IMG/VR virus record: IMGVR_UViG_3300006802_000458
Span: 1 to 26,700 of that record
DNA: 26,700 nt
Reading direction: 5' to 3' (one strand)
Source: a virus
Part shown: positions 131 through 20,809 of the stretch, piece after piece
How positions within the stretch are numbered: the stretch's first letter is position 1
Layout of the letters: each line of letters opens with the position of its first letter
The notes under the pieces: generated by a model
Databases searched by the model: none
What the model was told of the DNA's origin: nothing
The model's input: only the letters and a program-made list of their open reading frames with translations
Position numbers and translations under genes: made by a program

Positions 131-142
131 GATATTTATATA
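131..142 (+). promoter_or_regulatory. Late-promoter-like motif upstream of the 1331-codon gene
   Basis: GATATTTATATA contains the octamer TATTTATA (133-140), 33 bases before the ATG at 174. The same element recurs before most transcription-unit starts in the window. The + strand reading is the reverse complement of the T4 late box TATAAATA. The promoter role is inferred from recurrence and spacing. Confidence 0.55.
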
Positions 143-173: not shown

Positions 174-3100
174 ATGGATAATATAAACCTTTTACAAGAA
201 GCATTATCACTTCCCAACACCGAACTTCCCCATTTGAAGGCATTGCGGGTTGCGGTAAATAGTGATGTACCTCTCGATGTCAATTTTCTGGCCCAACAAT
301 CACTTCTGTCTATTATACAAGATTATAATACCAAAGTGACGGAAATGGGGCTGGGGGAATCGTGCATTGTCAAACCCACTGACACGACCAAAACCATCAG
401 AAAACGGTGCAAGAAAGCATTCCGTCACGGATTGAAACATTATCCCATGCGATATGTCTATGCCGTATCGGGATCGCCATTAGCAAGTGGGTTGGGTGAA
501 GAAAACAATCCATACGATTCACCAGACACAAATATCAAAACATTTACCGGTCAATTTAAACGTGATACTCGTAAAATTAAGAAACCACTCACGTTAAAAT
601 TGGTTGATCCTGAATCTGGATTGGAACGTGACGAAGATGATTTTGAAATGGTTGAAGGTGAAACCAGCACCGAACGCGTCCGTAAATACTACAAACGTCA
701 TCCTGAAAAGGTACGCAAGTATCTTCGGGATACCGTCAAGGATCGTGTCGCACGCAATCGGGATCGTCGTAAAGCAATTGAAAAACATGGAAAAGAAAAA
801 ATGAAAAATCACGATGTACACCATCCGAATGGTGCACAAAATGGAAATTGGAAACTTGCGAAGAAGGATCATGGTCGGGATAAACTAAAAGAAAATTATT
901 CATTTGAACACATTACCACGACTATTCAAGACTTCGTTGGATATGCTACAGATCAATTAAAACTCAATCAACCTCCATACGTCCGTATCATGGAACCCGA
1001 TGCGTCCACAACCAGTTTGGGTGGATACAATCCATTGAGTAAAGAAATTATCGTCATTACCAAAGGACGTTTGCTTGCGGATATTCTTCGCACGATTGCT
1101 CACGAAATGGCGCATCGTAAACAAGATGAATTGGGATACATCGTCAACATCGAAGAAGACGGTGCAACAGGATCGCCGGTGGAAAATAACGCAAATATCA
1201 TCGCCGGCATTCTGCTTCGTCAATATGGAAGAAAAAATCGTCACATCTTCCTTTCCGAAAATACGTTATTAACGGAAGGTGGTGCCGCAGGACATCTTGC
1301 ACACCCATTTGAAGATCCTGATCTAACGTTTGCAGACATGAAAGAAATGATTGACCGTGGATTGGTCGGTGGATTGGATCAAGAAGGTCCAGTCACCGAA
1401 AAACTGGACGGTCAAAATATTTCATTTAGTATACGTGATGGTCAGATTGTGTTTGCCCGCAATAAGGGACACGTAAAAAATCGTGGTCAAAACGCATTAG
1501 ATGTCGCAGGTATTCGTCAAATGTTTGCGGGTCGCGGTAACATTGAAAAAGCATTTACCACCGCAGCAGAAGACCTTCAGGCCGCAATTGACAAGTTATC
1601 ACCAGAACAACGTCAAGAAATGTTTGGTGATGGATCACGATTCATGAGCGCAGAAATCATTCTTCCAGACACGGAAAACGTTATTCCGTATGGAAAGAGT
1701 GTATTGGTCATGCATGGTACGATTGAATATGATGAGAGTGGTGAAGAAATCGGTCGTCAACCAGAAGCAGGACAAACGCTATCAGATGCAATTACTACGG
1801 TTGGTGCAGATAAACAAAAAACATATGGTATTGAGGGTCCACGGACTATTGCGTTCAATGAAGGTGAAGCAGAAAAATACAAGGAACACGCAGAAAAATA
1901 TAAAACGACTCTTGATCGTCTTGTATCTGAGTATGGATTGGACGAGGACGCAACACTTGCAGACTACCGCAGAAAGTGGTGGGAACAACGACTTATTCAA
2001 ATTTCCCAACAAACAGGAATTGAGTTTACCAAGGATGAATTTGAAGGATTAATTAGTCGTTGGGCTGACGGAGACAAAAAGTTCGGCGTCAAAGATATTG
2101 AAGACCCAGAAAAGAAAAAATGGTTCAGAGAGTTTGAAAAAACTGAATTACAGGCTGCACAAAAAGAAATGATTCGTCCTGTAGAAACTACTTTCTTGCG
2201 GGTTGGGGCAGATGCTATTCGTCGAACGACCAATACTCTTGGGGCAAACAATCCTGAAGCCGCCGTTCGTCTTCGTCAAGATGTGTTGAAAGCAATCAAG
2301 GCAATTCAAGACACCAAAGACCCAGACAAAATTGCAAAATTGCAACGGGAAATGGAACGGCTACAGTCCATTGGCATGGATCAAATTGTGCCGTCTGAAG
2401 GTGTGGTTTTCATGTATAATGGAAAACCCTATAAGTTTACTGGAACATTTGCACCAGTTAATCAAATACTAGGCACGTTCAAGTTTGGAATGGCACCAAA
2501 AGAAGAACCAACGAAAGAGGAACCAAAAGAAACACCATCTACCCAACAACCGCAAGAAAAGAAACCCGAACAACCTCAGGAACCACCAAAACCTCGTCGT
2601 ACTGTAGCAATCTTTACGGGACGATTCCAACCATTTCACGCTGGACACTATAGTATCTATCAATCGATGGTAGAAAAATTTGGTAAAGAAAATGTGTATA
2701 TTGCATCCAGTGATGCCACCGATGCAGTACGCTCTCCGTTTGGATTCAACGAAAAGAAAGACATGATCACCAGAATGTTTGGTGTACCAGAAGATATGGT
2801 GGTACAAGTCAAGAATCCATATGCTCCTAAAGAAATTCTTTCCAAACTTCCTGAAGATACGGTCTATGTGACCGCGGTCAGTCAAAAAGACGCAGATCGT
2901 TTGGGTGGTGGAAAATACTTTAGTAGTTTGGAAGATACTCCTGAAGAAGAACGCAAAGGATATAAAGATGGTGGATATGTCATGGTTGCTCCAGAAATGC
3001 AACTTGATATAGATGGAAGAAACATTAGTGGAACACAACTCCGTGCTATATTTGGTGATCCAAAAATTACAGAACGTGCAAAGAAAGAAATTTTTACTAA

Positions 3101-4169
3101 AGTATATGGTAAATTTGATGAAGATGTGTTTCAAAAGATCGTTAAAGTTACTACTAAATCTGAAGAAGCTAAACAGTTAACTGCGCAATACGGCGGCAAA
3201 GCGCCAAAGAAAGCTGTGAAAAAAGAACCATCGGTAGAAAAACCAACACCAAAAACACCAACGGAACAACCAACGGATGATGTTGCTGCAGCACGATCTG
3301 TGTTAACACAAAAAATCAAGAATCAAAAAACAGGACGAGAAATTTTAGTTGCAACGGCACTGAAATATCCAGAAGATGCTCCTGTTCGTAAAGCAGCAGA
3401 ACGATTGGTTCAACAAGCCATTGCAAAATCTCGTCGGGGAAAAAAGAAACAAGAAGTTATTTCAGAAGCAATTGATTCTGATAAACTCAAGGTATATCTC
3501 CATGTTCGAGATTTTACCGATGAAGAGCTGGCAGAAGAAGTTGAAGAATATTTTGATAACGAAAAGACGTTCCGAGCGTTCCCCGACCTTGCGGAAGACC
3601 GAAAACAATTAATTAAAATGATCAAGGATGCTGATGAGGAAGTCTTGACTACCGACGAATTATTACAATTGACAAATAGTGATGTTGGTGATATATTAAA
3701 GAGTGATAATCCAAAACAATTATTGGTTAAAATTGCGAAGGAAAACCAAAAAGATCTTCCCCGCCTGAAGAAAGCATTGTCGGGGAAACAAGACCTTCCG
3801 ATGCCGATTGTCATCAAACATCCTGACGGATATTATCTCATGGCAGGCAATACACGATTGTCACTGCTTGCCGTGAAAGGATATACCATACCCGTCAAGG
3901 TGTTGGTGTACGACAAACCTGCTCTCCTTGCGCCGGTCACCGCTCCACCACAAAAACCGGAGGCACGACAAAATAAAGCTAAGGAAATGTTCGAAAAACT
4001 CCTCAAAATGCGTGTTCGAAACCCCGAGACGAATAACTATATTAAGATCGACACGGCAATGGATTACAACAAACAACACCCGGCACACAAACTTGCGATG
4101 AATACGATTCGTCAACATATGCGAGGATTGTCAAATCGTGCGGGGGTACCAAAAAATAGACGAGATTAA
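174..4169 (+). CDS. Giant multidomain virion-associated protein: zinc protease, ligase-like, NMN adenylyltransferase-like, ParB-like
   Basis: This gene encodes 1331 residues, with GGA at 166-168 before the ATG. In order it shows: an HNH-like stretch rich in His and Asn (about 213-240); HEMAH (310-314), a zinc-metallopeptidase motif; a covalent nucleotidyltransferase/ligase domain with KLDG (nucleophile K410), an EGVVF motif (742-746) and a Lys in a motif V-like stretch (K754); a Pro/Glu linker; a cytidylyltransferase-fold domain with GRFQPFHAGH (816-825) and ISGTQLR (951-957), typical of NMN adenylyltransferases; a Lys/Pro linker; a tag repeat (1047-1079); a ParB-like segment with GNTRL (1225-1229); and a second tag copy (1279-1319). 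L/I-x-E sites after residues 9, 368 and 1098 could be prohead-protease cuts. It lies upstream of the terminase unit. The ligase substrate (RNA or DNA) cannot be told. Domain calls are motif-based; the polyprotein idea is inference. Confidence 0.8.
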   Translation: MDNINLLQEALSLPNTELPHLKALRVAVNSDVPLDVNFLAQQSLLSIIQDYNTKVTEMGLGESCIVKPTDTTKTIRKRCKKAFRHGLKHYPMRYVYAVSGSPLASGLGEENNPYDSPDTNIKTFTGQFKRDTRKIKKPLTLKLVDPESGLERDEDDFEMVEGETSTERVRKYYKRHPEKVRKYLRDTVKDRVARNRDRRKAIEKHGKEKMKNHDVHHPNGAQNGNWKLAKKDHGRDKLKENYSFEHITTTIQDFVGYATDQLKLNQPPYVRIMEPDASTTSLGGYNPLSKEIIVITKGRLLADILRTIAHEMAHRKQDELGYIVNIEEDGATGSPVENNANIIAGILLRQYGRKNRHIFLSENTLLTEGGAAGHLAHPFEDPDLTFADMKEMIDRGLVGGLDQEGPVTEKLDGQNISFSIRDGQIVFARNKGHVKNRGQNALDVAGIRQMFAGRGNIEKAFTTAAEDLQAAIDKLSPEQRQEMFGDGSRFMSAEIILPDTENVIPYGKSVLVMHGTIEYDESGEEIGRQPEAGQTLSDAITTVGADKQKTYGIEGPRTIAFNEGEAEKYKEHAEKYKTTLDRLVSEYGLDEDATLADYRRKWWEQRLIQISQQTGIEFTKDEFEGLISRWADGDKKFGVKDIEDPEKKKWFREFEKTELQAAQKEMIRPVETTFLRVGADAIRRTTNTLGANNPEAAVRLRQDVLKAIKAIQDTKDPDKIAKLQREMERLQSIGMDQIVPSEGVVFMYNGKPYKFTGTFAPVNQILGTFKFGMAPKEEPTKEEPKETPSTQQPQEKKPEQPQEPPKPRRTVAIFTGRFQPFHAGHYSIYQSMVEKFGKENVYIASSDATDAVRSPFGFNEKKDMITRMFGVPEDMVVQVKNPYAPKEILSKLPEDTVYVTAVSQKDADRLGGGKYFSSLEDTPEEERKGYKDGGYVMVAPEMQLDIDGRNISGTQLRAIFGDPKITERAKKEIFTKVYGKFDEDVFQKIVKVTTKSEEAKQLTAQYGGKAPKKAVKKEPSVEKPTPKTPTEQPTDDVAAARSVLTQKIKNQKTGREILVATALKYPEDAPVRKAAERLVQQAIAKSRRGKKKQEVISEAIDSDKLKVYLHVRDFTDEELAEEVEEYFDNEKTFRAFPDLAEDRKQLIKMIKDADEEVLTTDELLQLTNSDVGDILKSDNPKQLLVKIAKENQKDLPRLKKALSGKQDLPMPIVIKHPDGYYLMAGNTRLSLLAVKGYTIPVKVLVYDKPALLAPVTAPPQKPEARQNKAKEMFEKLLKMRVRNPETNNYIKIDTAMDYNKQHPAHKLAMNTIRQHMRGLSNRAGVPKNRRD
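3312..3410 (+). repeat. Shared protein tag, copy 1 (internal)
   Basis: Residues 1047-1079 of the giant protein follow the pattern N-x-x-T-x3-I-x3-T-A-L-x-Y-x4-P-x2-(K/R)-x-A. The same pattern, without gaps, occurs at the end of this protein and at the end of the HAD phosphatase. This copy is the most divergent (NQKT in place of NPET) and follows a Lys/Pro linker after the adenylyltransferase domain. Confidence 0.65.
4008..4130 (+). repeat. Shared protein tag, copy 2 (C-terminal)
   Basis: Residues 1279-1319 carry RNPET, then TAMDYNKQHPA, then basic helical sequence. The closest match in the window is the C-terminal end of the HAD phosphatase, also reading RNPET and YDKQHPA with identical spacing. 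Only 12 residues follow, so this is a true C-terminal tag. Confidence 0.75.
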
Positions 4170-7075: not shown

Positions 7076-7107
7076 TTGATAGAGTTTATCCAATTTTGGA
7101 GAACAGT

Positions 7108-7386
7108 ATGAAACGTAGTGAATTAGAGCAAATTATTCGGGAAGAATTGGAAAAAGCATTACAAGAACGTGCTGAACTATCCGAAAAATCCGTTCCTGAA
7201 CCATACAATCGTAATTCCCCACCGCGTAGACCAATGACAAAGGCTCAAATTAAAGAACGCGACAAGATTGGTAAAGCAATGGAAAAAAATCCAGATACCG
7301 TCAAGCGGTTTAAGAATAAATTTGAAAGTGAATGGCGTGATTATTTGTGGGCATCAGCAACCAGCAAAGTCTTGGGACGGAGATAA
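7108..7386 (+). CDS. Small conserved phage protein with amphipathic N-terminus
   Basis: This gene encodes 92 residues. An upstream TTG at 7096 is in frame, but GGAG at 7098-7101 sits 6 bases before the ATG at 7108, so 7108 is the better start. The N-terminus (MKRSELEQIIREELEKAL) is an amphipathic helix containing I-R-E, which would fit a prohead-protease site. The rest is basic, with a segment KERDKIGKAMEKNPDTVKRF and an aromatic end. Function unknown. It is the first gene after the promoter-like motif. A role as packaged internal protein is possible from the N-terminus only. Confidence 0.75.
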   Translation: MKRSELEQIIREELEKALQERAELSEKSVPEPYNRNSPPRRPMTKAQIKERDKIGKAMEKNPDTVKRFKNKFESEWRDYLWASATSKVLGRR

Positions 7387-8753: not shown

Positions 8754-9061
8754 TCCGTTTGATGGATATCATTCTTGACGAAGAATACAAAACGAAGGGT
8801 AACCTTGGTAAATGGCTCCGTCAGAAGTGGGTGGATATTTCTCGTAAAGACCCCAAGACAGGAAAACATCCTCCGTGTGGGGCATCGGCGGGAAAGAAGG
8901 AACGAAAAGGTGGTTCAGCAAAATATCCTAAGTGTCGTCCCGCACGTTCGGCGGCAGCAATGAGTAAAGGTGAAAAACGATCCGCCGTAACCAGAAAACG
9001 AAAAGCAGGCAATCCCGGTGGAAAACCAACGATGGTCGCAACATTTAAACGGAGTAAATGA
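8750..9061 (+). CDS. Small basic Cys-containing conserved phage protein
   Basis: This gene encodes 103 residues. An upstream in-frame ATG exists at 8732, but the ATG at 8750 forms an ATGA junction with the previous stop, has AGGAAAG just before it, and gives the N-terminus MIRLMDIILDE, similar to neighbouring genes. The body is very basic: KWLRQKWVDISRKDPKTGK, then PPCG and YPKCRPARSAAAMSKGEKR, ending in KPTMVATFKRSK. Two Cys residues about 26 apart could bind zinc. It resembles a conserved phage/bacterial domain of unknown function. DNA or RNA contact is plausible from charge alone. Confidence 0.8.
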   Translation: MIRLMDIILDEEYKTKGNLGKWLRQKWVDISRKDPKTGKHPPCGASAGKKERKGGSAKYPKCRPARSAAAMSKGEKRSAVTRKRKAGNPGGKPTMVATFKRSK

Positions 9062-9426
9062 TAATGTATTTCCTTACTGAACTAACATGGCCGCAATTTA
9101 AGCAATTACCACACATTAAAAAACTGGATTCGTACCAACAACAGATTCGGTATCATCAATATTTAAATGAAATTGCACAACAAAATGCAATAATGTATGC
9201 TCAACATAATATGGGTAGTCCGGGTGGTGGTCATGAACCTACCCCAACCCCATCAGTGACGCCGAGTATTAGCGCAACCCCAAGTGTCACGCCATCAATT
9301 AGTATAACTCCATCAGTAACGCCAAGTGTCACACCAAGTATTTCAATCAGTCCAAGTATCACACCGTCAGTAACGCCAAGTATTAGTGTTACTCCTTCGG
9401 TTACTCCAAGTCCAAGTGGCGTTTAA
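9058..9426 (+). CDS. Protein with Thr/Pro/Ser repeat tail
   Basis: The protein has 122 residues from ATG 9058, which overlaps the previous stop as ATGA. ATG 9064 is an alternative and has better spacing to GGAG at 9051-9054. The first 55 residues form a small helical domain (LTWPQFKQLPHIKKLDSYQQ ... YLNEIAQQNAIMYAQ), followed by GSPGGG. Residues 61-120 are near-perfect repeats of T-P-S-V/I-(T/S), with no charged residues. Such a tail should be extended and rigid, and could be a stalk, a surface-exposed adhesin-like element or a flexible tether. The helical domain is probably the anchoring part. No enzyme motif seen. Confidence 0.8.
   Translation: MIMYFLTELTWPQFKQLPHIKKLDSYQQQIRYHQYLNEIAQQNAIMYAQHNMGSPGGGHEPTPTPSVTPSISATPSVTPSISITPSVTPSVTPSISISPSITPSVTPSISVTPSVTPSPSGV
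9238..9423 (+). repeat. Imperfect tandem repeat encoding (TPSVTPSIS)n
   Basis: Units of about 12-27 bases built on CCAAGT/CCATCA + GT(C/A)AC(G/A/C)CC repeat across 186 bases. Synonymous positions vary strongly between units while the amino-acid pattern stays constant, so the repeat is kept at protein level. Such arrays can change length by recombination. Confidence 0.8.
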
Positions 9427-9916: not shown

Positions 9917-10240
9917 ATGAGCAAACACCATAAGCGTGTCCGTATAAAGTATCGTGAATTGTATGAAGCGCATTATGGAGAAATACCTGAAGGTTATCAA
10001 ATTCATCACATTGATGGGAACCCGTATAACAACGACATTTCAAACTTGATGGCAGTGTCACCCGATGATCATGTGAAACTGCACGACTACCAGAAGAAAC
10101 ATCATGTTAAGACTAAAAGACCTGTTGGGCGAAGGAAACACCCCTACAAAAACATCAAAAAACGAGGTTCCCTACAAAAGCGGAGATACCTATATAAGTC
10201 GGGAAGAGGCATTAAAAATTCACGACCAAATGGGGTATAA
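9917..10240 (+). CDS. HNH homing endonuclease
   Basis: This 107-residue protein has the HNH core GYQIHHIDGNPYNN (H30, H31, N39), then ISNL, D51-H52 and H56, giving a complete small HNH fold in residues 1-60. Free-standing HNH genes of this type are usually mobile elements that cut cognate alleles. Residues 63-107 are encoded by DNA that also encodes the start of the next gene in another frame, and are extremely basic without a recognisable fold. The Shine-Dalgarno is weak. Activity is plausible because the core is intact; whether the tail is a DNA-binding addition or read-through is unclear. Confidence 0.85.
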   Translation: MSKHHKRVRIKYRELYEAHYGEIPEGYQIHHIDGNPYNNDISNLMAVSPDDHVKLHDYQKKHHVKTKRPVGRRKHPYKNIKKRGSLQKRRYLYKSGRGIKNSRPNGV

Positions 10241-10403
10241 CTTTGATCCTGACGAATTTGTCACGGGTATAAATGTTGAACTGGAACACCAAGATGTGAC
10301 CGATGGAAGTTTAGTGAAAACTGCAATGATTGCTGCGGCACATCTGAACGAAGTCCCCAATTATTACACCTTATTACAGAAGTATGTGGAGAAAAAACAA
10401 TGA
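10104..10403 (+). CDS. Conserved small protein (VELEHQ...AHLNEVPNYYTLL family)
   Basis: This 99-residue protein overlaps the 3' end of the HNH gene by 137 bases in another frame. The body FDPDEFVTGINVELEHQDVT ... MIAAAHLNEVPNYYTLLQKY matches a domain of unknown function I recall from phage and bacterial proteins (DUF5661-type), so the frame is real. The N-terminus MLRLKDLLGEGNT looks like a capsid-targeting sequence with L-G-E before G, a fit for T4-type prohead-protease cleavage. The Shine-Dalgarno is weak (AGAAG). The stop overlaps the next ATG. Confidence 0.85.
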   Translation: MLRLKDLLGEGNTPTKTSKNEVPYKSGDTYISREEALKIHDQMGYNFDPDEFVTGINVELEHQDVTDGSLVKTAMIAAAHLNEVPNYYTLLQKYVEKKQ

Positions 10404-11305
10404 AACGTGAAAAAGTCAAATCACTCGTTCGTGAGATTTTAAAGACTATTAATGAACGGAGTAAAGAAGCAAAAGCAAGAGCCGACAAAGCTGCTATGCA
10501 AACAGGAACAGATCAATATTCTTCAAGATTCCTAGCACAAAATCCTCTATCACCAAGAGATCTTAAAACCGTGGGTAGAGGAGTGCAAAAAGGTGCAGGA
10601 ACAGCAACAATGCCGGGTACGCCAGCAAGACCGGGTGGTGGTCCTAAACGTGATATGACTGCAATGATGAGTGATCCGTTGCAACACAGACAAGCATATC
10701 AACAAGGTAAAACTTCAATTCCCGGACCACAAATTGGAGGAAGTGCAGCATTTGGTGGAGCTGCAGTTACACCACCACAGGGACAAGCTCCTGCAGCAGA
10801 TGCAGCAGGACAAGCAGCTCAACAAAACTTGAAAAAAATACCGGGAACTTTTGGTCTGTACAGTGCAACTGGTACTGCACCAGCAACACATAGATCTTAT
10901 AAAGGTCAATTGCGTGAAATTCCACCAAAAGGTAAGGCTGGCGCTCCTCGCCCTCTTCCAGAAAATAAAACTTTGTTAAGAAACCTTATTTCTGAAAACG
11001 CTTATAATCGCGTTAATTTGATGAAGATTGGAGCATTGATGGAAAAGGCCCTTCCTGAATTGACCAAGGATCAATCTAAAAAACTAACGGAACTATTCAC
11101 AGAATTGAGTATGATGGCAACCAACATGAACGGTCTTGCATACACAGTCAAAGAATACAAGTTGAATGAATGGCAATTATTGATTGCGTCATTCCATAAG
11201 AAATTGGATGAATTCCGTTCTGAAGTCATGAAAATTAACGAAAAGTCAGACAAGGTAAATTGCGCACCACTAATTAAAGCACTTGACGAAGCACTAACTT
11301 ATTAA
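10400..11305 (+). CDS. Unrecognised protein upstream of the portal, Gly/Ala/Pro/Gln-rich middle
   Basis: This 301-residue protein is coupled to the previous gene by ATGA. It has an amphipathic, basic N-terminus (MKREKVKSLVREILKTINER), a low-complexity region (about 35-190) rich in Gly, Ala, Pro and Gln, and a helical C-terminal domain (about 195-301) with LLRNLISENAYNRVNLMKIG and ELFTELSMMATNMNGLAYTV. The layout (helical, flexible, helical) and the place just before the portal suit a head-core or internal structural protein. L-I-S-E near residue 200 could be a protease site. The family was not recognised. Confidence 0.75.
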   Translation: MKREKVKSLVREILKTINERSKEAKARADKAAMQTGTDQYSSRFLAQNPLSPRDLKTVGRGVQKGAGTATMPGTPARPGGGPKRDMTAMMSDPLQHRQAYQQGKTSIPGPQIGGSAAFGGAAVTPPQGQAPAADAAGQAAQQNLKKIPGTFGLYSATGTAPATHRSYKGQLREIPPKGKAGAPRPLPENKTLLRNLISENAYNRVNLMKIGALMEKALPELTKDQSKKLTELFTELSMMATNMNGLAYTVKEYKLNEWQLLIASFHKKLDEFRSEVMKINEKSDKVNCAPLIKALDEALTY

Positions 11306-14675: not shown

Positions 14676-15263
14676 ATGTCCAAACTCTTGTGTGAATATA
14701 CCGAACTTCATTACAATAAAGATCTTTTAGTTGAATCACTTGATGGATCAAAGCCATTGATTCTTCGAAATGTAATCTTACAACGTGCTAATGCCAAGAA
14801 TCAAAATGGTCGGGTATACCCAAAAGAAATCTTGATGCGTGAAGCAAATATCTACAAGCAAAACTTTGTTGCACAACGCCGGGCACTGGGTGAACTGGAC
14901 CATCCAGAATCTCCCGTGGTCAACTTAAAAAATGTATGCTGCAATGTCACGGAACTATGGACGGAAGGTGATGATGTCAAGGGTACCATTGAAATCTTGA
15001 CGACTCCAACCGGTAATATCGTCAAAGAATTGATTCGCAACAATATCAAATTGGGTGTGTCGTCACGAGGAATGGGATCGGTTCGACAAATTGGTGAAGG
15101 AACAGTGGAAGTGGATGAGGATTTCTCTCTGATCTGCTTTGACATTGTGTCTAATCCTTCAACGATTGGTGCGTTCATTACGGAAAATACGACACCAACG
15201 ATTGTCACTCCATATGACAATATTGATAAACTAATCTATGACTTTTTAAGTGAGGTTAAATAA
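14676..15263 (+). CDS. Prohead core protease (gp21-like)
   Basis: This 195-residue serine protease cleaves scaffold, core and capsid proteins during prohead maturation. The signature is RALGELDHPESPVVNLKN (catalytic His76), GVSSRGMGSVR (Ser129/Ser130) and FDIVSNPS (Asp156), as in T4 gp21, which is 212 residues. Its known preference in T4 is L/I-x-E with cleavage after Glu. It starts directly after the previous gene and precedes the scaffold and capsid genes as in T4, though with inserted genes. Identification is secure. Confidence 0.94.
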   Translation: MSKLLCEYTELHYNKDLLVESLDGSKPLILRNVILQRANAKNQNGRVYPKEILMREANIYKQNFVAQRRALGELDHPESPVVNLKNVCCNVTELWTEGDDVKGTIEILTTPTGNIVKELIRNNIKLGVSSRGMGSVRQIGEGTVEVDEDFSLICFDIVSNPSTIGAFITENTTPTIVTPYDNIDKLIYDFLSEVK

Positions 15264-15909: not shown

Positions 15910-16620
15910 ATGGGCAAGACACTCTTCATCAGTGACTTTGATGATACTCTTGCTGAAACGGATGCCAAGATTTATTTGACCCGTGACGGCAAACGATTTG
16001 AGATGACTCCCGCAGAATATGCAGTGTATCAAGAAGAACCGGGAGATCAATTCGATTTCTCTGATTTTGACAAACTGATCAACCCCCGTCCCATCAAACG
16101 ATTCGTCAGGATGTTACAAAACGCATCAGATAATCCCAAGGTGGACAAGGTAGTTATTTTGACTGCACGTGGTCATACCCGTCCCGTGGCACAATTTCTC
16201 AAGAAGTTTGGCATTACGGGACGGATTACGATTGCGGCATTGGGGAGTAGTGATCCAGATCGTAAAGCACGTTACGTCGAAAAACACATTGAACAAGGAT
16301 TTGATCGGATTGCGTTTGTTGATGATTCTCCAAAAAATGTGGAGGCAGTTGACAAGTTAAAGACCAAATATCCAGAAGTCAAATTACTGGTACATCAAGC
16401 AAAAGAAACAGCAGAAGAACCAGAAAGTCCCGAAACACCAGCCGAAGATAAAAATAAAATTGCTAAAACTTCATTGGAAAAGCAAATTGATACTATGGTG
16501 ATACGTAATCCAGAAACCAAACGGGACATCAGAATGAAAACGGCGTTATCGTATGACAAACAACATCCCGCCTATCGTGCAGCAATGCAAACACTTCAAG
16601 GGTTACGCAAGAACACTTAA
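15910..16620 (+). CDS. HAD-family phosphatase with C-terminal virion tag
   Basis: This 236-residue protein has HAD motif I DFDDTLAETD near the N-terminus (nucleophile D9, second acid D11), motif II ILTARGHTR, a basic motif III-like stretch (RKARYVEKHI) and motif IV FVDDSPKN. Small HAD proteins of this kind in phages are nucleotide or polynucleotide 3'-phosphatases, as in the T4 PseT phosphatase domain; the substrate here is unproven. A Pro/Glu linker (about 165-185) leads to residues 196-236, which closely match the C-terminal tag of the giant protein. The shared tag suggests a common destination, perhaps the virion. Confidence 0.85.
   Translation: MGKTLFISDFDDTLAETDAKIYLTRDGKRFEMTPAEYAVYQEEPGDQFDFSDFDKLINPRPIKRFVRMLQNASDNPKVDKVVILTARGHTRPVAQFLKKFGITGRITIAALGSSDPDRKARYVEKHIEQGFDRIAFVDDSPKNVEAVDKLKTKYPEVKLLVHQAKETAEEPESPETPAEDKNKIAKTSLEKQIDTMVIRNPETKRDIRMKTALSYDKQHPAYRAAMQTLQGLRKNT
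16495..16617 (+). repeat. Shared protein tag, copy 3 (C-terminal)
   Basis: The tag reads RNPET at residues 199-203, then KTALSYDKQHPAYRAA to the C-terminal helix. Aligned without gaps to copy 2 (RNPET ... TAMDYNKQHPAHKLA) and copy 1. The sequence similarity is at protein level; the DNA is diverged, so it is not a recent duplication. Confidence 0.75.
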
Positions 16621-18512: not shown

Positions 18513-20087
18513 ATGTCAGATGTATCAAATTTAATTAATGAAGCCGGCTCAGCTCACCAAGTCGTCATCGAAAAGACTCGGAAGTTGGCAGCTAAGTGGG
18601 AAGATTCAGGTCTTCTCGAAGGCTTAAAGGGCTACGAAAAGCAAGGGATGGCCGTCATGCTTGAAAACCAAGCATCACAACTCTTGTCAGAAAACAGCAA
18701 GACCAACGCAGCTGGTACCTCTGGTGAAAACTGGGCAGGTGTCGCACTTCCATTAGTCCGCAAGGTCTTCGGAAGTATCGCAGCCAAGAATTTCGTCTCA
18801 GTTCAACCAATGAACCTTCCAGCAGGTTTGGTGTTCTACATGGACTTCAAATACGGCACTACCGTAAATGGTAAGACCGCAGGCGGTTCACTCTATGGTA
18901 ATGGAATTACCAGTACAGTCGGTGGTTTCGGCAATACCGATACCGGCGGTTTGTACGGCGCAGGAGCATTCGGTTATTCAATCAATGATGCAACTGCAAC
19001 TGGTCTTACAGTCGCATCTGCGTCAGTTTCATTCTCTGATGTTAACTATGACGCAAATTATGTTGATACCGCCTCATTGTTAAAGTATTCTGTAGCTACC
19101 TCATCACTTACCAACCCTGATCTTCTTGCGGCTCGGGCATATGTTCCTTCTGGATCTGGTCCTGACTTTGCAGGATTAGTGCTTCCGCAATTCACCAAGG
19201 TCGTAGGTGCTAACGTTGTCTTCGTCGTAAACAGTACAACTGCTGGTACGCTCACATCAGTTGCATACACCAAGCAACCAACTGACACCACCCGTGGTGA
19301 CTTCGAAGATCGTGATGGTTCAACCGATCTTGCAATTCCACAAATTGATCTTGAACTTCGTTCAGAAACCATCGTCGCCAAGACTCGTAAGTTGAAGGCC
19401 GTTTGGTCACCTGAACTTGCTCAAGACTTGAACGCATACCACTCAGTCGATGCAGAAGCAGAATTGACCAGTATGCTTTCAGACTATGTAGCAACTGAAA
19501 TCGACCTCGAAATTCTTGACATGTTGATTGCAGCAGCTCCATCAGAAACCACTGAATATTGGTCAGCTGAAATCGGCACTGTGTGGAATGGTTCGGCATT
19601 CGCCGCTTCATCTTACACTGGTACCGCTTGGACCAACATGACTTGGTTCCAAACCCTCGGTCAGAAGATGCAAAAAGTCAGTAACCGCATCCACCAATTG
19701 ACCATGCGGGGTGGTGCTAACTTCGCAGTTGTTTCACCAACCGTAGCAACCATCCTTGAAACCATCCCCGGCTTCCAAGCTGGTACCGATGGCGACAAGA
19801 TGGAATTCGCAGCCGGTGTTACCAAGATTGGTTCATTCCAAAACCGTTTCACTGTCTACAAGAACCCATACATGAAGGAAAACATCGTCCTCATGGGCTT
19901 CCGTGGTTCACAATTCCTCGAAACCGGCGCAGTGTACGCTCCGTACATTCCGTTGATCATGACGCCTCTCGTCTATGATCCAAACAACTTCACTCCACGC
20001 CGGGGTGTGATGACTCGTTACGCCAAGAAGATTGTCCGTCCTGAATTCTTCGGCAAGATCTACATCGACAAGCTTTCACTCATCTAA
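18513..20087 (+). CDS. Major capsid protein (gp23-like)
   Basis: This 524-residue HK97-fold capsid protein starts behind AGGAG (18499-18503). Conserved segments: N-terminal helical propeptide with VMLENQASQLLSENSKTNAA, ending in L-S-E, so cleavage after E60 is likely; then GENWAGVALPLVRKVFGSIA and the conserved C-terminal half (DLELRSETIVAKTRKLKAVW, LAQDLNAYHSVDAEAELTSM, RGVMTRYAKKIVRPEFFGKI). T4 gp23 is 521 residues with a propeptide of 65. Lys is almost always AAG and Phe TTC, unlike neighbouring genes, fitting very high expression. A terminator follows. Identification is secure. Confidence 0.96.
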   Translation: MSDVSNLINEAGSAHQVVIEKTRKLAAKWEDSGLLEGLKGYEKQGMAVMLENQASQLLSENSKTNAAGTSGENWAGVALPLVRKVFGSIAAKNFVSVQPMNLPAGLVFYMDFKYGTTVNGKTAGGSLYGNGITSTVGGFGNTDTGGLYGAGAFGYSINDATATGLTVASASVSFSDVNYDANYVDTASLLKYSVATSSLTNPDLLAARAYVPSGSGPDFAGLVLPQFTKVVGANVVFVVNSTTAGTLTSVAYTKQPTDTTRGDFEDRDGSTDLAIPQIDLELRSETIVAKTRKLKAVWSPELAQDLNAYHSVDAEAELTSMLSDYVATEIDLEILDMLIAAAPSETTEYWSAEIGTVWNGSAFAASSYTGTAWTNMTWFQTLGQKMQKVSNRIHQLTMRGGANFAVVSPTVATILETIPGFQAGTDGDKMEFAAGVTKIGSFQNRFTVYKNPYMKENIVLMGFRGSQFLETGAVYAPYIPLIMTPLVYDPNNFTPRRGVMTRYAKKIVRPEFFGKIYIDKLSLI

Positions 20088-20164: not shown

Positions 20165-20809
20165 ATGGCAACCGTATCTGGAATATATAAAATTACCAAT
20201 ACCATGAATGGGCATTTCTATATCGGCAGTTCCACAAATGTTCATCGTAGAAAACAACGCCATTTTAAATATTTAAAGATAGGTTGTCATGAAAATCGAC
20301 ACTTACAGAATGCCTATAACAAGTATGGTGAAGGAGCGTTTACATTTGAAATCGTTACAACGGTAGCAAAGGATCATCTGCTTCAGGAAGAACAATCACT
20401 GTTAGATCAGCATTTCGGTCAACCATATTTCTATAATATTTGTAATATCGCTGGGAGCCCATCAGCCCCCAATCGCAAAAAGTCAATAACACATCGTAAA
20501 AGATTATCAGATTCTATCAAACAGTATTTCTCCGAACATCCAGAACACAGAGAATTTCTTGCTGAACTTCGCCGTGGAAAACCGTTGTCGGAAACCATTA
20601 AACAAAAAATGCGTACCTCAAAGAAACGAGGAACGCAACATCACAACTCAAAATTAACCGATGATATCGTGTACCAAATAAAATTACGTTATAAACCACG
20701 GGAATGTAGCTTCGGTCAGTTGGCAAAGGAGTTTGGGGTAGACAAAAAAACTATCATCCGTATTATACATAATAAAACATGGACACACGTAACTATCAAT
20801 AAACACTAG
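20165..20809 (+). CDS. GIY-YIG homing endonuclease
   Basis: This 214-residue protein starts behind AGGGGA (20151-20156). The N-terminal GIY-YIG nuclease domain has GIYKITN (6-12), FYIGSS (18-23), R28-type Arg residues, and a conserved Glu region further on (QEEQSLLDQHF). The middle carries NUMOD-like repeats (THRKRLSDSIKQ, SETIKQKMR) and the C-terminus a helix-turn-helix (QLAKEFGVDKKTIIRIIHNK). It is a free-standing mobile endonuclease, between the capsid terminator and the neck operon. All expected domains are intact. It probably entered by homing; its cognate site is unknown. Confidence 0.92.
   Translation: MATVSGIYKITNTMNGHFYIGSSTNVHRRKQRHFKYLKIGCHENRHLQNAYNKYGEGAFTFEIVTTVAKDHLLQEEQSLLDQHFGQPYFYNICNIAGSPSAPNRKKSITHRKRLSDSIKQYFSEHPEHREFLAELRRGKPLSETIKQKMRTSKKRGTQHHNSKLTDDIVYQIKLRYKPRECSFGQLAKEFGVDKKTIIRIIHNKTWTHVTINKH

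Follow-up and report, generated by a model that had tools for sequence, protein, structure and literature searches.

A candidate prohead-protease-processed polyprotein with RNA-ligase-like and NMN-adenylyltransferase-like domains in the head cluster of an uncultured virus

The internal proteins IPI-III and Alt of bacteriophage T4 are targeted to the capsid, cleaved by the prohead protease gp21 and injected into the host. Cleavage occurs after the Glu residue of L/I-X-E, and the internal proteins bear targeting leaders of 10-19 residues (PMC9026906), as in the annotated IPII precursor, in which positions -10 to -1 read MKTYQEFIAE/A (X04567; here and below, a slash marks a cleavage site or candidate site). 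The DNA analyzed here (the window) comprises positions 1 to 26,700 of IMG/VR virus record IMGVR_UViG_3300006802_000458, a 26.7-kb uncultured virus fragment that carries a T4-type head and tail cluster. Its first gene (174..4169, + strand, ATG start) encodes a protein of 1331 amino acids, which has in common with the T4 system a leader ending in L/I-x-E, an S77 protease in the genome and the type of site in the capsid protein. Each T4 internal protein is a single product with its propeptide at a terminus, whereas the window protein contains internal candidate sites between several enzyme domains. It is proposed, with a probability of about 0.7, that this gene encodes a virion-internal polyprotein that is cut by S77 at its domain junctions, and that the resultant enzymes are injected, most likely for RNA repair.

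Other described systems share individual features with this locus. Polyvalent proteins also combine, within a single phage protein, enzymatic domains that are unrelated to each other, zincin and ParB-like ones among them, and are predicted to be injected (Iyer et al., 2017; PMC5512222). The window protein, like them, is one polypeptide of a mobile element with at least two domains whose activities differ widely. In that work, processing is proposed to be due to a fused zincin or assemblin-like peptidase, whereas the junction sites of the window protein are of the kind cut by a separate prohead protease. The present case may also be likened to the ejection proteins of SPN3US and phiKZ, which are packaged and whose maturation depends on a gp21-like protease with cleavage after Glu; the sites described there remove propeptides, however, and a multi-enzyme polyprotein is not reported in that paper (PMC10052503). 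The 250-kDa DarB protein of P1, as described in the available part of its report (PMC9024508), is likewise a very large injected protein that is packaged by means of an N-terminal targeting signal, but no succession of protease sites along its domain junctions is reported in that part. A NadM-like nucleotidyltransferase domain is shared with the NadM/NadV system of phage NAD (nicotinamide adenine dinucleotide) salvage (PMC9503650), from which the window protein differs in having no Nudix fusion and in being fused to an RNA-ligase-like domain within a head cluster. In the literature searched, neither a multi-enzyme polyprotein cleaved by a prohead protease nor the ligase-adenylyltransferase core and its exchange with stand-alone genes was found described. 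Capsid-targeted internal proteins, polyvalent proteins and prohead-protease maturation are known; the same literature yielded no account of a site series that would divide one precursor into several enzymes, with conservation across a large uncultured family and parts that are interchangeable with separate leader-bearing genes.

Placement and conservation of the L/I-x-E sites

A preliminary description of this DNA, made from the sequence alone, noted L/I-x-E sites just before predicted domains and cautioned that such short sites arise often by chance. The caution is right for the raw count, since [LI]xE occurs 14 times in the 1331-residue protein and 14.8±3.4 times in shuffled sequences; the number of sites was consequently rejected as evidence. 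Unlike the number, the placement and conservation of the sites exceed chance. Conservation of the junction was scored over ligase homologues in 25 clusters (<70% identity), where P1 immediately precedes the conserved GG of the ligase and P3 stands two residues before P1. P3 is Leu or Ile in all 25 clusters and P1 is Glu in 22 of them, while P2 is as variable as unconstrained sequence (entropy 2.9 bits). The domain upstream of the ligase differs among these relatives, being a zincin, an HNH-like basic domain, a nicotinamide mononucleotide (NMN) adenylyltransferase (NMNAT), a zinc-finger-like linker, a HAD phosphatase, or nothing. In every cluster, an [LI]xE lies within 40 residues upstream of the ligase, compared with 16% of 36-residue windows elsewhere in the proteins. 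Over whole proteins, [LI]xE[AGSN] outside domains is enriched 3.4-fold (58 vs. 17.3±4.2 expected; maximum of 300 shuffles, 29) and inside domains is depleted (14 vs. 31.9±5.4 expected). The control motifs [LI]x(D/K/Q) and [FYW]xE, and motifs with a large P1′ residue, show no comparable enrichment outside domains. With the N-terminal leader and the junction before the ligase set aside, 28 sites remain against 13.4±3.7 expected, a value reached by 1 of 1000 shuffles.

The prohead protease and the capsid protein of the window carry sites of the same type. The prohead protease that had been noted nearby is confirmed as an S77 enzyme of the gp21 type (14676..15263, +) by both Pfam (E = 3.9e-28) and the PHROG head maturation protease family (3.1e-52), and it carries candidate sites of its own, LVE/S after residue 20 and ITE/N after residue 170, near its C-terminus. 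The major capsid protein contains LSE/N after residue 60 (18684..18692, +), at the propeptide position of gp23. In relatives whose capsid protein was readable, the same position has [LIV]xE/[NASV]; in Microcystis phage Mel-JY01, the sole isolate among the relatives in the annotated phage set, it is ISE/A. Of 40 contigs that bear polyproteins or separate parts, many of them fragments, 25 were found to encode S77. A looser form of the leader motif is present in 13 of 20 complete open reading frames (ORFs) of relatives; in the window protein, it is LQE/A after residue 9.

Relatives number at least 581 in one viral collection, and the parts are also encoded separately or in other combinations. The ligase stands alone in a 462-kb uncultured phage, where its leader is MKFLKSYEEFLNENLILE/GG, and in L294 it opens a two-domain ORF beginning MNKTLLTE/GG. 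A stand-alone ParB-like domain (L174, L178, L182, and L186) directly follows YSLKDILFE/S, YSLKQLLYE/S, YSLKSILYE/S, or IELKKILFE/S, the first and third of which are among the leaders of L182 and L186; this is the same point as ISE/A in the window protein. The HAD phosphatase-like gene of the window (15910..16620, +) has a homologue fused inside the polyproteins of three relatives (L029, L031, and L032; E about 1e-38), and the separate DUF5661 gene of the window (10104-10403), with the leader-like start MLRLKDLLGE/G, is fused in the polyproteins of L037, L041, and L163. The zincins of other polyproteins come after NLSE/S or NISE/S, and in some relatives the ligase and NMNAT stand in reverse order with sites between them. 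The domain sets also vary: a 2108-amino acid polyprotein in L231 (348-6671) contains NMNAT, ParB, zincin, HD, CCA-type nucleotidyltransferase (3.7e-34), and ligase domains, and that of L109 carries a P-loop kinase. When two other ligase subfamilies were used to search the annotated phages, only the same three records came back. The occurrence of the ligase, ParB, HAD phosphatase, and DUF5661 parts as separate genes, with the sites conserved, leaves the polyprotein reading standing in the homologue comparison that the preliminary description had suggested.

One marine clade (the M clade; 19 sequences in 8 clusters at 85% identity) has Met in place of the junction Glu, in the sequence ELLLM-GGAYGH. 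GGAG lies 9 nucleotides before this junction ATG in 18 of the 19 sequences, as opposed to 10 of the 514 remaining in-frame ATGs in these ORFs and to 2 of 82 Glu-type relatives at the same place. Members with an internal Shine-Dalgarno sequence and ATG just before the ligase include L068, L070, L075, L099, and L111, and an ORF on a 2.8-Mb bacterial chromosome contig (L296) has M-GG as its very start, preceded by a Shine-Dalgarno sequence of its own. The simplest reading is that the internal ribosome-binding site could produce free ligase from the same Gly-Gly. Since the protease Glu is lost and yet a Shine-Dalgarno sequence and ATG occur at exactly that point, the junction position looks like a true product boundary that has been reached in two ways. 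A further site, about 12-30 residues upstream of the junction, is present in many M-clade polyproteins.

Domain architecture of the 1331-residue protein

All of the motifs listed in the preliminary description were found, at the residues given there where it gives them: LQE-A after 9, HEMAH at 310, K410 (in KLDG), LTE-G after 368, and ISE-A after 1098. GRFQPF is at 816, ISGTQLR at 951, and a ParB-like GNTR at 1225. Further sites with a small P1′ residue are LKE/N after 240, LSE/N after 362, and LGE/S after 62. The window protein was aligned with its relatives (29 and 24 sequences) as input for AlphaFold models, whose mean predicted local distance difference test score (pLDDT) is 78.8 and 83.2, respectively. 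Starting from the N-terminus, the models show a helical domain and then a disordered stretch (100-167), followed by a basic domain, a zincin, and a large ligase; after a linker come a nucleotidyltransferase, a small module, a ParB-like domain, and a second module copy. Foldseek is weak for this multi-domain model (no match at E ≤ 0.001), and the Z values given below are those of a second structural aligner.

The leader, which resembles T4 capsid-targeting sequences, occupies residues 1-9 (MDNINLLQE, ending LQE/A; 174..200; this and the following features of the gene are on the + strand) and is followed by the helical domain (residues 10-105; 201..488), which is present in part of the family. 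A weaker candidate site, MVE/G after residue 161 (648..656), marks the start of the basic domain; relatives have ISE/A, LRE/A, or VSE/A there, and the Glu is at least 90% conserved (alignment A4). The very basic domain itself (isoelectric point 10.4; residues 162-240; 657..893) contains HDVHHPNG...NG...KDHG and is HNH-like by eye only; profile searches yielded no credible Pfam or PDB family for it above the cut-off. It ends at the candidate site LKE/N after residue 240 (885..893), which adjoins a disordered stretch (233-239). The zincin-like metallopeptidase domain (residues 241-362; 894..1259) has HEMAH at 310 and a conserved Glu downstream, corresponding to H72, E73, H76, and E99, which are invariant in alignment A6, and its fold matches that of Wss1 (5xbn; Z 8.9, 3.8 Å, 104 aligned residues).

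The tandem sites LSE/N (362) and LTE/G (368) (1251..1277) lie in a predicted disordered linker (360-370) directly before the RNA-ligase-superfamily nucleotidyltransferase (residues 369-772; 1278..2489), which contains K410 in EKLDG, EGVVF, and YKFTG. Motifs I (KxDG), IV (EGxxF), and V (Lys) are invariant in alignments A1 and A2; in all 17 sequences of A1, these are E51-K52-x-D54-G55, E384-G385-x-x-F388, and K396. The model matches a Naegleria RNA ligase (6vt3; Z 10.0, 3.6 Å, 185 aligned residues) and T4 Rnl1 (5tt6; Z 9.2, 3.9 Å, 183 aligned residues). By Pfam or PDB sequence profiles, no match of the ligase was above the cut-off, and its best E value against Pfam RNA_ligase (PF09414), 0.004, is under the gathering score; therefore, it is not filed under a named Rnl family. 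A linker rich in Pro, Glu, and Lys (2490..2594), without an [LI]xE site, connects it to the NadM-like nucleotidyltransferase (residues 808-1002; 2595..3179), which has GRFQPFHAGH and ISGTQLR and matches Pfam CTP_transf_like above the cut-off (1.3e-7). Its model matches NadM-type enzymes (2qjt, Z 12.7, 5.8 Å, 176 residues; 1f9a, Z 11.5, 3.3 Å, 151 residues), and searches with PDB sequence profiles favour NMN enzymes (1f9a, E = 3.4e-8); the NCBIfam NadM equivalog cut-off was missed (34 bits vs. 397), and a Pfam scan found no C-terminal Nudix domain in the window protein.

The small repeat module (first copy, residues 1044-1096; 3303..3461; RNPxTGxxIxVxTAxxY) is followed by ISE/A after residue 1098 (3459..3467), where relatives have LTE/N, LVE/N, LSE/G, or LME/S. 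In the model, residues 1096-1098 are at a helix end in a low-confidence stretch (pLDDT 60-69). Neither this location nor that of the 366-368 site in the disordered linker speaks against cleavage, and the structure check proposed in the preliminary description thus leaves the reading intact. The ParB-like domain (residues 1099-1250; 3468..3923) has a GGNTR/AGNTR motif (here the slash separates variants; alignment A7) and a weak match to a PDB ParB structure (7bnk, E = 0.022). A second copy of the module occupies residues 1262-1320 (3957..4133). This module of about 50 residues, RNPxTGxxIxVxTAxxYxxxHPAxxAA in its fuller form, occurs three times in the window (3303-3461, 3957-4133, and 16471-16617), the third copy being in the HAD phosphatase-like gene, and is also found in small head-cluster proteins of the relatives L010 and L051. 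No family was found for it; a weak match of its hairpin to the DNA-binding beta-arm of HU (RNPxTGxEIxI, E = 0.26) is a lead only.

Proposed processing and competing explanations

According to the proposed mechanism, the leader MDNINLLQE would carry the precursor into the prohead core in the manner of the capsid-targeting leaders of T4 internal proteins, and S77 would cut during head maturation after the Glu of L/I-x-E at the junctions, namely at residues 9, about 240, 362/368, and 1098. The predicted products are a basic HNH-like piece (10-240; 26.6 kDa), the zincin (241-368; 14.4 kDa), a joined ligase-NMNAT-module enzyme (369-1098; 81.8 kDa), and a ParB-module protein (1099-1331; 26.7 kDa). 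The ligase and NMNAT of the window protein probably stay joined, because there is no site in the linker between them. The earlier suggestion of several enzymes from one precursor is supported, and is modified in that these two domains are probably not separated and further sites occur at 240 and 362. The released enzymes would remain with the DNA and enter the host by injection, a route of delivery suggested by the location of the gene in the head cluster and by the leader. Their likeliest job would be to repair quickly the RNA (tRNA) that host defences damage, the NMNAT restoring a nucleotide cofactor, NAD or a related one. The CCA-transferase and HD domains of L231, the kinase of L109, and the HAD phosphatase in relatives suggest a packaged RNA-repair kit, and the company of a CCA-type nucleotidyltransferase, a kinase, and a HAD phosphatase fits the proposal that the ends of damaged RNA are healed and sealed.

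The same observations may be read in other ways. A polyvalent protein might be packaged and injected whole, as the virion RNA polymerase of phage N4 reportedly is packaged unprocessed (PMC5512222), with the L/I-x-E sites being relics of capsid-targeting leaders from fused genes; the separate genes do carry leaders that end in the same motif. Relics would decay, however, whereas P3 and P1 persist even where the flanking domain shares only about 33% identity and where P2 and the remainder of the leader differ, and sites between non-ligase domains are enriched too, which makes this explanation rather unlikely. T4 produces its RNA-repair enzymes in the cell and is not known to package them, and the window protein could similarly be a late cytoplasmic multi-enzyme protein, neither packaged nor cut, in which fusion merely co-expresses the enzymes. 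This is considered improbable in view of the location of the gene in the head cluster, the resemblance of its leader to those of T4 internal proteins, and the position-specific conservation of the junction motifs. Cleavage by the zincin domain of the polyprotein itself, instead of by the prohead protease, would agree with the presence of HEMAH and with the autoprocessing proposed for such domains in polyvalent proteins (PMC5512222). Yet this zincin occurs in only 2 of the 25 clusters, while the full junction motif occurs in 22, and the motif fits both the specificity of gp21 and the site in the capsid protein. Zincin self-processing was accordingly rejected as a general mechanism, given that nearly all of the 23 clusters without this zincin have the motif, and we regard it as very improbable here.

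Several points weigh against the reading as an S77-cut virion polyprotein. The cleavage motif is short and its raw number in the window protein is at chance; the junction of the basic domain retains Glu, but Leu or Ile at P3 is not found in all relatives; and the M clade has no junction Glu, although its capsid proteins keep their Glu site. Several relatives (L022, L024, L054, and L057) begin directly with NMNAT and have no leader, so that their targeting would need another signal. As to function, the repair role is a proposal drawn solely from the company that the domains keep, and structures of phosphopantetheine adenylyltransferase match the nucleotidyltransferase nearly as well as those of NMNAT (Z 11.3 vs. 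12.7).

It is also tempting to speculate, at even odds, that tailed phages have adopted a polyprotein strategy like that of RNA viruses, in which the precursor of an RNA-repair and cofactor kit (varying sets of ligase, NMNAT-like, CCA-transferase, kinase, phosphatase, ParB, and zincin domains) enters the prohead and is cut there by the head protease into separate enzymes, and one clade has given up a cleavage site in favour of a start codon with its own internal ribosome-binding site, which yield the same mature ligase end. If the polyprotein reading is true, head-protease maturation would extend from the trimming of single internal proteins to the freeing of an enzyme series from one polyprotein, which would explain how one targeting leader loads many cargo enzymes, and the virion would contain an RNA-ligase/NMNAT unit that is ready ahead of any phage gene expression. 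The isolate Mel-JY01 is where this idea is open to routine virion proteomics.

The head cluster and neighbouring features

The cluster in the window includes genes for the terminase large subunit, portal, S77 prohead protease, a scaffold-like protein, the gp23-like capsid protein, and the tail sheath. A TATTTATA box (133..140, +), a possible late promoter, is located 34 nucleotides 5′ of the polyprotein start codon and is common to the leaders of four other structural genes. On the + strand, the boxes begin at 133, 7066, 17250, 20828, and 26056 (5 copies, against 1.04 expected on both strands); each immediately precedes a structural gene of the same strand, and TATAAATA is absent from that strand. 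The TATTTATA box is possibly the late promoter of this lineage.

A GIY-YIG homing endonuclease gene (20165-20809) has been inserted after the capsid protein gene, ahead of the neck genes, and the head cluster also includes a small HNH_3 endonuclease gene (9917-10240; Pfam 9.5e-15). A low-complexity protein with an SVTPSISVTPS repeat (9058-9426) resembles a long repeat in a 1613-amino acid protein of L054. A similar helical N-terminus, of the IREELxxxLxE type, occurs in the products of 7096-7386 and 10400-11305 of the window, and in those of L010 (13268-13993) and L051 (11135-11695); such small head-cluster proteins are perhaps further proteins of the prohead core.

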